From the IMG/VR virus record IMGVR_UViG_3300021131_000031, positions 1-33,794 of that record: a stretch of 33,794 nt of DNA; one strand, written 5' to 3'. The DNA comes from a virus. Numbering within the stretch: the first letter of the stretch is position 1; each line of letters opens with the position of its first letter. Below the pieces are notes generated by a model. The model was given only the letters and a program-made list of their open reading frames with translations. It was not told the origin of the DNA and ran no database searches. The position numbers and the translations under genes are program-made. Of the stretch, positions 8,079 to 15,884 are shown piece by piece.

Positions 8079-8584
8079 TACAAATCAAGGAAAAGCTGGT
8101 ATCAGAGCTAATTCCTTATGTAAAAAACAGTCGCACGCATTCTGACGAACAGGTTGCACAAATAGCGGCAAGCATAAAGGAATTTGGCTGGACTAACCCA
8201 ATACTTATTGATGGCGAAAACGGCATCATAGCTGGGCATGGAAGGGTCATGGCCGCTAGAAAGCTAAAGTACGACAAAGTACCAACAATTGAGCTAAAAG
8301 ACTTAACTGAAACCCAAAAGAAGGCTTACATAATTGCTGACAACAAACTTGCATTAAATGCTGGCTGGGATAATGAAGTTCTAAAGATTGAAATATCAGA
8401 TTTACTTGCAGACGGGTTTACCCTTAGTGTTTTGGGTTTTGATACCGATGAACTGCAAAAGCTGTTAGATGTGCCAGACTTTGAGCCTGCAACGCAAGAT
8501 GACCAAAGCAAATTAGACGAACTAGAACCTAAATGGATTGCTTGCCCACATTGCGGGAAAGAATTTGATGCAAGACAAACCTAG
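8075..8584 (+). CDS. ParB-like nuclease-domain protein with C-terminal zinc ribbon
   Basis: 169 residues. Residues 1-100 form a ParB/sulfiredoxin-type domain: IPYVKNSRTHSDEQV, NPILIDGENG and the AGHGR motif (53-57) with RVMAARKL after it. In many phages this domain is fused to an adenine or cytosine DNA methylase; here the fusion partner is absent and the protein ends with a CPHCGKEFD knuckle. The next gene, overlapping by 17 nt, is Mom-like, so the pair may act together in DNA modification. ParB-domain proteins can also bind CTP or cut DNA; which applies is unknown. Confidence 0.82.
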   Translation: MIQIKEKLVSELIPYVKNSRTHSDEQVAQIAASIKEFGWTNPILIDGENGIIAGHGRVMAARKLKYDKVPTIELKDLTETQKKAYIIADNKLALNAGWDNEVLKIEISDLLADGFTLSVLGFDTDELQKLLDVPDFEPATQDDQSKLDELEPKWIACPHCGKEFDARQT

Positions 8585-9275
8585 CCTAAAAATTGATTGG
8601 GCAAGCCATGAATCGGCTAAGTATGCTTGCACTAACTGGCATTACAGCAAATGTGTGCCTGTGTTCAAGTGTGTTCGCATAGGGGTTTGGGAAAACGATA
8701 AATTTATTGGCGTTGTTTTATTTGGACAGGGTGCAACACCTGAAATTGGTTCGCCATATAAATTGAAACAAATTGAGATATGTGAACTAACAAGGATTGC
8801 TCTTACCAAACACATAACGCCAGTTTCTAGAATATTGTCTATTGCGTTTAAGTTTTTGCACAAGAGTTCACCAAATCTAAGAATGATTGTTTCATTTGCA
8901 GATGAAGGTCAAGGCCATCATGGTGGAATCTATCAAGCAACAAATTGGATTTATACGGGTGGTGCTGAGACACACGCTTATTTAGTAAACGGCGTACAAT
9001 ACCATCCAAAATCATTACATTCAAAATACGGCGTAGGTGGTCAATCTATACCGTGGTTGCAAAAGAATGTAGACAAAAATGCAAAACGGATTATTTCTGG
9101 ATTCAAACACAGATATTTGATGCCGCTTGATGATGACATGAAGAATCAAGTAGCAAAGTTAGCAAAGCCTTATCCTAAGCGTGTGAAGCAGGCGATGGTC
9201 GATTCCCTCGACACAGCGGCGGTGCATCACCGACCCACACGCTCCATATTGGCAGAAGTAACCGAAAATGCTTAA
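8568..9275 (+). CDS. Mom-like DNA adenine modification protein
   Basis: 235 residues from ATG 8568; an upstream in-frame codon at 8538 has less support. It matches the Mom family by eye: NWHYSKCVPV (23-32), GVWENDKFIGVVLFG (39-53), CELTRIAL (72-79), VSFADEGQGHHGGIYQATNW (108-127) and KSLHSKYG. Mom of phage Mu is a GNAT-like enzyme that converts adenines to a carbamoylmethyl form and protects phage DNA from restriction. This phage likely does something related to its own genome. The preceding ParB-like protein may assist. AT-richer codon use than the terminase genes suggests separate acquisition. Confidence 0.85.
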   Translation: MQDKPSLKIDWASHESAKYACTNWHYSKCVPVFKCVRIGVWENDKFIGVVLFGQGATPEIGSPYKLKQIEICELTRIALTKHITPVSRILSIAFKFLHKSSPNLRMIVSFADEGQGHHGGIYQATNWIYTGGAETHAYLVNGVQYHPKSLHSKYGVGGQSIPWLQKNVDKNAKRIISGFKHRYLMPLDDDMKNQVAKLAKPYPKRVKQAMVDSLDTAAVHHRPTRSILAEVTENA

Positions 9276-14394: not shown

Positions 14395-15006
14395 ATGAGC
14401 AATAATTTATTGACTATTTCAAAAATTACTAATGAGGCTTTGATGGTCCTGGAGAATGAACTCACGTTCACCTCAGAGGTCGATCGCAACTATGATGATC
14501 AATTCGCGGTTGTTGGCGCAAAGATTGGCGCAACCGTTAATGTGAGACGTCCTGGTCGATTTGTAGGTACTATGGGCCCCGCTTTGAACGTTGAAGATTT
14601 CAACGAATCAAGCGTACCCGTCACACTCTCAAATCAGTTCCATGTGGACACTCAATTTACCACCCAGGACTTGGCGCTATCCCTTGATATGTTCAGCGAC
14701 CGGGTTCTCAAACCGGCCGTGGCCGCCATAGCAAACCGGGTAGACCGTGATGGCTTGGTGATGGCAAAAAACAATACCGCAAATATTGTTGGCGTTGCTG
14801 GAACACCTCCCACAGGTTTAATCACCTATCTAACCGCCGGCGCATATCTTGATGCCGAGGGCGCACCACGCGATGGCCGCCGTGCTTGTATCATTGAACC
14901 ATTCACATCGGCAACAATCGTTGATTCGCTCAAAGGTTTGTTTGTGCCCCAAGAAGCCATTGGCGAGCAGTATCGCAAAGGTTTGATGGGTAGAGATTCT
15001 GCGGGT
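14395..15006 (+). CDS. Major capsid protein, exon 1 (P22-coat-like)
   Basis: 204 codons from ATG 14395 (ribosome site AAAGGGA) to the 5' splice site. The N-terminus, SKITNEALMVLENELTF, then YDDQFAVVGAKIGATVNVRR and HVDTQFTTQDLALSLD, fits P22-type coat proteins with the HK97 fold. Without splicing the frame runs into the intron and stops at TAG 15031-15033, giving a 212-residue fragment. Spliced to exon 2 the product has 414 residues, close to P22 coat (430). The junction gives GRDSAG joined to MNWKMDQNV with no lost or extra codon. Confidence 0.9.
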
Positions 15007-15251
15007 AAAGTTATGCCCGCATACTTGCACTAGGCAAGTTGGCAAAATTCTCTCTGATTGACTTGGAAGTCTGGAAGCAGACGACAGGGCGGAAGCGATA
15101 AGCACCGTGAACGACTAAGTGAGAGAACCCGAAAGGGATGCGATAGTCTGAACAGAGGTATAACAAAAGAAGCCTCTGAGGGTAGATCGAAGAATCAACC
15201 CCGCCATCGAAAGGTGGTCAGTAAGCTGAAAAGCTGAAAGTAACAGAATTG
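15007..15251 (+). ncRNA. Group I self-splicing intron in the capsid gene
   Basis: 245 nt, no coding capacity. P1: exon GCGGGU (15001-15006) pairs with GCCCGC (15015-15020), with the last exon U facing a G, the diagnostic wobble at the cut site. P2: 15023-15028 with 15034-15039. P3: UUCUCUC (15048-15054) with GAGAGAA (15121-15127). P7: GACUA (15113-15117) with UAGUC (15144-15148). P8: CCC-GAAA-GGG (15128-15137). P9: CAGAGG (15153-15158) with CCUCUG (15173-15178). Two more hairpins with GAAA loops lie at 15204-15217 and 15224-15235. The intron ends in G (15251). A possible P10 pairs UUAU (15011-15014) with exon 2 AUGA. A hairpin at 15069-15082 belongs to P4-P6, which I could not fully resolve. 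Strand order P3-P7-P3'-P8-P7' is that of group I. Confidence 0.95.
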
Positions 15252-15884
15252 ATGAATTGGAAAATGGATCAAAACGTTGTGAGCCAAACGTTCGGCAATA
15301 GCCCCACATCGGTTCTATCGTGCAACACAAGCACCGCAACGGGCTTTTTGACATCTGGATGGGCACAGTTCTCAACGATCGCTCTAAGCGCCACTACGGC
15401 GGCTGGAAACTTGAACGTTGGTGATGTGATTCAGATTGCAAACGTCTACGCCGTCAACCCACAAAACCGCCAAGCCTATGGTTCCAACAAGTTGCGAAAC
15501 TTTGTTGTCACCGCCGCCGCAACGGTTGCCACAAGCGGAACCACTAGCGTGACAGTTAGCCCCGCTATCATCACCGCCGGTCAATTCCAAAACGTTAGCG
15601 TGACAAGCCCAGGCGCGTCAACCGTTACACCGTTTAACAATTCCGGTACCGTGTCACCACAAAATATCATCTTACATCGCAATGCTTTTTGCTTGGCCGT
15701 GGCCGATCTTGAGCTCCCGGAAGGTGTCCATTTTGCGGGCCGTGCCTCTGATAAAGAGATCGGTTTGTCACTCCGAGTTGTAAGGCAATATACAATCAAC
15801 AATGATAGTATTCCAACGCGTTTGGACATCTTGTATGGTTGGGCACCGCTTTACCCCGAATTGGCTTGTCGCGTTGCGGCTTAA
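15252..15884 (+). CDS. Major capsid protein, exon 2
   Basis: 210 codons plus stop, in frame with exon 1 after intron removal. It opens MNWKMDQNVVSQTFGNSPTS, which continues the coat fold, and includes a beta-rich middle (LNVGDVIQIANVYAVNPQNR) that matches in place the region following the coat core in P22-type proteins, then HRNAFCLAVADLELPEGV and a C-terminus ending LDILYGWAPLYPELACRVAA. No ribosome site precedes the ATG at 15252, so it should not be translated alone. Confidence 0.9.
   Translation: MNWKMDQNVVSQTFGNSPTSVLSCNTSTATGFLTSGWAQFSTIALSATTAAGNLNVGDVIQIANVYAVNPQNRQAYGSNKLRNFVVTAAATVATSGTTSVTVSPAIITAGQFQNVSVTSPGASTVTPFNNSGTVSPQNIILHRNAFCLAVADLELPEGVHFAGRASDKEIGLSLRVVRQYTINNDSIPTRLDILYGWAPLYPELACRVAA

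Follow-up and report, generated by a model that had tools for sequence, protein, structure and literature searches.

How might a virus make a full-length coat protein from a gene whose reading frame is broken by a stop codon? The major capsid gene of an IMG/VR virus record (IMGVR_UViG_3300021131_000031) raises this question, and the whole 33.8-kb record (33,794 nucleotides) is the window analysed here. The window carries a P22-like head module, in which terminase (PF04466), portal (PF16510) and coat (PF11651) genes are recognized by Pfam profile search. The coat frame, like every feature described below, is on the plus strand; it starts at 14395, is interrupted by a TAG (15031-15033) and continues from 15252, a pattern already noticed in a preliminary description of the sequence. 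Both halves match the P22_CoatProtein family PF11651, with exon 1 (14395-15006, residues 1-204; E=8.1e-12) corresponding to profile positions 1-206 and exon 2 (15252-15884, residues 205-414 and the stop codon; E=8.8e-17) to positions 254-420. Joined at 15006/15252, the predicted junction reads GATTCTGCGGGT/ATGAATTGG, and the resulting 414 residues match the major head protein group PHROG 283 over 1-413. These Pfam and PHROG matches and the neighbouring P22-type portal and terminase identify the gene as a P22-type coat.

The coat gene is unbroken in many of the window's close relatives. The closest intronless relative at the DNA level, L126, is 95.1% identical over 1245 nt, and since this alignment is gap-free, the insert corresponds exactly to 15007-15251 and zero codons are lost. 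The earlier claim that the 15006/15252 join yields a continuous 414-residue coat with all codons kept is thus borne out by L126.

The 245-nt insert has the architecture of a compact group I intron and contains no endonuclease ORF. P1 (15000-15021) consists of seven pairs between the exon sequence UGCGGGU (15000-15006) and the internal guide GCCCGCA (15015-15021), with a U-G at the 5' splice site. It is followed by the P2 hairpin (15023-15028/15034-15039), apparent from folding and sequence, whose loop contains the in-frame TAG. P3 (15048-15054/15121-15127) encloses P4 (15062-15065/15085-15088), P5 (15069-15073/15078-15082) and P6 (15089-15092/15105-15108), and forms a pseudoknot with P7 (GACUA/UAGUC, 15113-15117/15144-15148). 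P8 (CCC-GAAA-GGG, 15128-15137) and J8/7 (AUGCGA, 15138-15143) complete the core, and the 3' part includes the P9 hairpin (15153-15178), the P9.1 hairpin (15180-15201) and two GAAA-capped hairpins, P9.2 (15204-15208/15213-15217) and P9.3 (15224-15227/15232-15235). The conserved 3' end, GUAACA...G (15240-15251), finishes with a terminal G at 15251; 3' ends were sought at G-ending positions only, and for coat copies the intact relatives agree with them. The preliminary description had listed P1 with its U-G, P2, P3, P7, the GAAA-capped P8, P9, two more GAAA hairpins and the terminal G, all of which are present, as are P4, P5, P6 and P9.1, which it did not list. It had also placed 245 nt near the minimum for the class; the intron is indeed small, but members of its family reach 196 nt. 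The insert folds with z = -4.0, and none of 200 shuffles is as stable. Minimum-energy RNA folding by itself does not recover the P3/P7 pseudoknot of the window intron.

A strong match of the Rfam group I model to 15007-15251 had been expected, and this expectation failed. When cmscan was run with Rfam, no match was found anywhere in the window at the gathering score, and the group I model gave none around the insert even at E<=10. Six loci with relatives of the intron were searched together with a T4 control, and only T4 nrdD was matched (105 bits); at gathering and permissive thresholds alike, RF00028 matched no family member tested. Because the T4 nrdD control was detected, the Rfam library works and misses this intron family. 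The failure is that of a model blind to the family, and does not make the intron call wrong. The incompleteness of the Rfam group I model has been noted in the literature (PMC11878797), and subgroup covariance models for group I introns were reported in 2025 (PMC11835236).

Comparative evidence for the fold comes from an alignment, A1, of 68 non-redundant compact copies, which was tested against the group I structure; the GUAACA sequence is its last block and served as its 3' anchor. In A1, 94.3% of cells are paired and 39 of the 52 pairs have changed on both sides. Cells with double changes number 694; shuffles give 217 +/- 17 such cells, and slid controls never exceed 137. P3 has double-sided changes in all seven of its pairs across the 68 relatives (98.3% of cells paired), P9 in five of six (99% paired) and P9.1 in eight of eight; P5, P6 and P8 also covary, P9.2 and P9.3 are supported by covariation and sequence, and P4 varies on one side only. 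P7 is invariant in 68/68 and was part of the search pattern, so covariation is uninformative on this element. RNAalifold, run unguided on the family, predicts P3, P4, P5, P6, P8, P9 and P9.1.

A covariance model of the family, R1, scores the window intron at 188.7 bits (15044-15245). On the complete T4 genome, only two R1 matches reach E<=10. One spans 45615-45781 (E 0.2) and the other 138508-138535 (E 2.2); each is weak, and both overlap introns found by RF00028. The T4 group I introns span only a few hundred bases, and therefore it is unlikely to be luck that both weak matches land on them.

Could the insert instead be some RNA element of similar shape that does not belong to group I? The complete failure of the Rfam model is what such a reading would predict, yet the model's known incompleteness (PMC11878797), the P3/P7 pseudoknot, P4-P6, J8/7, the U-G 5' site, the terminal G and the reciprocal R1 matches on two T4 introns make this explanation very improbable. 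We regard as more improbable still the idea that the insert is dead or mis-assembled and that the coat gene yields two separate proteins, which is how an interrupted coat is annotated in GenBank record MW202674.1. The break falls mid-protein within a single-domain family match, the catalytic core is conserved with compensatory changes, P1 is refitted to each exon, and other contigs carry copies at the same site. Assembly error as the origin of the insert was rejected because those contigs are independent.

The refitting of P1 can be stated quantitatively. The window P1 scores 18 with its own exon, versus a mean of 6.2 for mismatched pairs in the family. Among non-redundant copies, the mean is 15.5 with the own exon and 6.2 with exons of other sites, and the own-exon score exceeds the latter mean in 54/54 cases; own scores were helped in that P1 guided some boundary choices, and the coat boundaries also rest on intact relatives. 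Automatic choice of splice sites, based on P1 score and an open frame, gave wrong boundaries at several sites. Coat boundaries were set from intact relatives, and those of the codon 386 and 391 sites, where an extra hairpin lies within the P1 loop, were set by hand.

Covariation, the pairing of P1 with the exon, intronless alleles and the T4 matches thus agree with the preliminary description of an endonuclease-free group I intron with exact boundaries in a major capsid gene. That assignment is about as certain as sequence evidence allows, and from it we infer splicing. In the process that we propose, the late mRNA would be transcribed with the intron still inside, and pairing of the guide GCCCGCA with the exon end UGCGGGU would place the 5' splice site at the U-G. 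A guanosine bound in P7 would then attack this site, and joining of the exons would give one 414-residue coat protein. Unspliced RNA would yield a 212-residue fragment. It follows from the in-frame stop codon that production of coat protein, and of virions, would depend on splicing. We are highly confident that 15007-15251 is a self-splicing, endonuclease-free group I intron in a P22-like coat gene, and that it is one of a large family missed by Rfam; the course of splicing proposed here is its most likely mode of action.

The family was surveyed with a P7/J8-7 pattern, which retrieved at least 120 viral contigs with about 140 copies. A narrower pattern, scanned to completion, found 44 contigs, including 8/8 of the pattern-bearing contigs among the first 120. 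Scaling up from the narrower pattern, we estimate that some 660 IMG/VR contigs carry a family intron, with a range of about 330-1500 that reflects the counting error on 8. The family consensus matches 4 of 50,697 phage records, which are MW202674.1, two of Desulfovibrio phage 7757, and Roseobacter phage CRP-118; elsewhere it matches one plasmid record and, in a set of 84,980 prokaryote species genomes, 13 contigs.

Several of these records were inspected individually. In MW202674.1 (L001:2198-3713), the GenBank annotation of the intron-split coat consists of two coat proteins and a hypothetical protein within the intron. In CRP-118 (OR420741.1, L219:2940-3186), also an isolated phage, an unannotated intron lies between two annotated ribonucleotide reductase pieces; its P1 is AATCCGT/GCGGATT, and Rfam misses it. 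Desulfovibrio phage 7757, likewise isolated and 142 kb in size, has an intron core scoring 128 bits (L220:2493-2708), and its genome shows weak RF00028 matches at three other places.

About 70% of copies are compact (102/142 among the matches listed, and 29/44 in a second sample of 35 contigs picked by core motif irrespective of gene). The other 40 of the 142 matches listed include some with an antisense LAGLIDADG gene in L6, some with GIY-YIG, and some cut by contig ends. LAGLIDADG-like genes antisense to the host gene were observed in loop L6 of introns in L012, L015, L079, L113, L115 and L121; one tested member matches PF00961, and another missed Pfam at 0.001. Intron-encoded endonucleases, as in homing introns, therefore occur in other family members, and no homing endonuclease domain was found in the window intron or in the scanned window proteins, a scan that covered larger ORFs.

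Most family members lie within capsid genes of bacterial viruses from the environment, genes that they have evidently invaded repeatedly and at many sites. Homologues of the window coat flank 52/142 copies among the matches listed, and the next host-gene groups are the PHROG 1357 capsid type, then PHROG 9953, a group weakly resembling the SU10 type, and PHROG 1328. A few copies are in portals and ribonucleotide reductases. In the second sample, 37/44 copies have a homologue of one of these host genes no more than 450 nt away, nearly always of a capsid type. P22-type coat genes contain at least ten insertion sites, at codons 38/39, 51/52, 85/86, 109, 204/205, 205, 354, 382/383, 386 and 391 in window numbering, where the window's own site is 204/205. 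About 12 sites occur in the PHROG 1357-type capsid gene among the matches listed, some with boundaries assigned automatically. One coat gene, in L014, contains three introns.

A different kind of interruption was observed between coat codons 40 and 41. This element of 32-41 nt with an in-frame stop is present in L017 (1740-1800) and about 20 other contigs, including L016, L021, L029, L052, L061, L070, L076, L078, L252, L258 and L428. It consists of GTGGTA, usually an immediate TAA, CCTGCCTC, a small hairpin and TTGAGG. It accompanies a family intron at codon 51 in 19/19 testable contigs, and two more run off the contig end; three codon-51 introns occur without it. The arrangement recalls translational bypassing, or else re-initiation within a split gene.

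Relationships among the introns suggest how these sites might have been colonized. In a phylogeny covering 101 introns, the 40 site labels require 48 changes, compared with a minimum of 39 and a shuffled value of 78.7, and by starred branches sites 85 and 386 require three changes each. Introns thus appear to be kept at their sites for some time, yet single sites have been invaded more than once. The tree neighbour of the window intron is that of L092, at codon 391 (SH-aLRT 96). At codon 85 of the MW202674.1 coat, an intron 83% identical to that of the window has its P1 rewritten to GUGGAU/GUCCAC.

One candidate route to new sites, possible but rather doubtful in our judgement, is RNA-level reverse splicing into abundant capsid mRNA at 4-7-base guide matches, followed by DNA copying and recombination. 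Since this proposal concerns the mobility step only, it leaves the group I identity intact. The nearest relatives at different sites share 2.54 bases of the 5' exon end, versus 1.64 by chance; when collapsed to 30 site pairs, sharing of the 5' exon gives p=0.0008 and sharing of the 3' exon is without effect (p=0.52), in a test performed after suggestive pairs had been noticed. Over all pairs, intron identity shows no significant correlation with exon similarity (p=0.26). Among individual cases, two 95%-identical introns in L022 have the seven bases AGACGCU in common at different places in the contig, those of L059 and L060 share the ten identical bases CAAGTTCGGT despite differing in position and reading phase, and the L092 intron has a CCAU that lies 15 nt away from the one normally occupied. 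The predominance of capsid genes is also what mass action on an abundant mRNA would predict. However, an insertion into an essential gene survives only with a functional P1, so that matching targets are expected by any route; they are predicted by reverse splicing and equally by selection for splicing after any insertion. Our suggestion that this is a compact, Rfam-invisible lineage multiplying mainly by guide-directed reverse splicing into capsid mRNA and subsequent phage recombination, and not by homing, is offered a shade more tentatively still.

At the window's own site, the flanks point to transfer at the DNA level, which also weighs against reverse splicing there. The window and intronless L126 differ at 61/1245 coat positions, and eight of these differences fall within the 15 nt before the junction. 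All eight are synonymous and five lie outside P1. A cluster of this size was reached in 0/20,000 codon-position shuffles, whether at the insertion site itself or in 15-nt windows anywhere. This looks like co-conversion, in which another intron-bearing phage would have donated the intron along with exon DNA. Two more close pairs, L084/L146 and L064/L157, show an excess of flank differences of this kind, which is absent in distant coat pairs and slight over all coat copies (0.18 near vs 0.16 far). Genes for the recombination proteins ERF and YqaJ and for RusA are present in the window phage. Among its other genes is one for DNA modification, encoding a Mom-family protein (PF25680, E=7.8e-51) at 8538-9275.

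Introns in L436 and L438 occupy the window's site and have an identical P1; they were found by an exon-junction pattern for this site that is otherwise too loose. Their P1 and P3 are as in the window, and their 3' halves are different, a pattern that suggests recombination of introns with each other.

Movement driven by endonucleases, with the compact copies being relics whose endonuclease gene has been lost or depending on LAGLIDADG or GIY-YIG enzymes that related introns supply in trans, is a serious contender for the mobility step, to which it too is confined, and we give it nearly an even chance. The members with an antisense LAGLIDADG gene (PF00961) in L6 or with GIY-YIG, and the co-conversion-like flanks, fit this explanation well. 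It has more difficulty with the compactness of most copies and the lack of a homing endonuclease domain among the scanned window proteins, and homing alone revisits the same site and leaves ten sites per gene unexplained. The mobility that we propose for the family combines two steps. The introns would persist through movement, reaching new sites rarely, where a target matches the short guide, and passing from an occupied site to intronless alleles through DNA recombination that carries flanking exon along. Both the recombination step and the route to new sites are what we infer from the flanks and the guide matches.

These results have practical consequences. Because the standard model misses the family, hundreds of environmental virus contigs probably have capsid genes whose annotation shows them as broken or split. 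The means by which group I introns arrive at new sites is a long-standing question, on which the ten sites in one coat gene, together with a 95%-identical intronless allele for the window's site, constitute a natural experiment. Laboratory tests are possible, since members are present in Roseobacter phage CRP-118 and in Desulfovibrio phage 7757.

Accounts of phage group I introns centre on DNA-metabolism genes and on movement driven by endonucleases; the present family targets the major structural gene at many positions, is mostly enzyme-free and is missed by the standard model. The T4 introns of nrdD, td and nrdB belong to subgroup IA2. Like the T4 introns that RF00028 detects, the window's family has a P3-P9 core, a P7 of the GACUA/UAGUC type, a U-G 5' site and a terminal G, and resides in phage protein genes. 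The T4 introns differ in that they interrupt nucleotide metabolism genes, carry their own endonuclease genes and are visible to RF00028, which does not detect the window's family. Introns in capsid genes are already known. Mycobacteriophage LittleE has a group I intron in its major capsid gene, for which splicing was demonstrated, as an 819-bp insertion with an HNH gene at a single site (PMC3706429), and a major capsid intron of lactococcal phage Tuc2009 is cited in the same paper. Here, a compact family occupies about ten sites in one coat gene and has members in several capsid families. Compact multi-copy introns are likewise known from the Jug phages, whose introns of about 206 nt number 18.5 per genome, with mostly stand-alone endonucleases and with splicing seen in metatranscriptomes (PMC12363816). 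These resemble the present family in being compact and multi-copy, in a comparison made by description only, and differ in residing in huge gut phages and in host genes such as terL and nrdD. For nuclear rRNA gene introns, movement to new sites has been deduced from the phylogeny of the introns and from their short pairings with the 5' exon, much as here; those introns are not in phage mRNAs, and the present family shows signs of flank transfer at the DNA level too. No description of this intron family was found in the literature searched, which comprised open-licence papers. What appears to be new is the combination of a lineage outside the standard model that is centred on capsid genes, occupies many sites per gene, is mostly enzyme-free and has targets matched to its guide.
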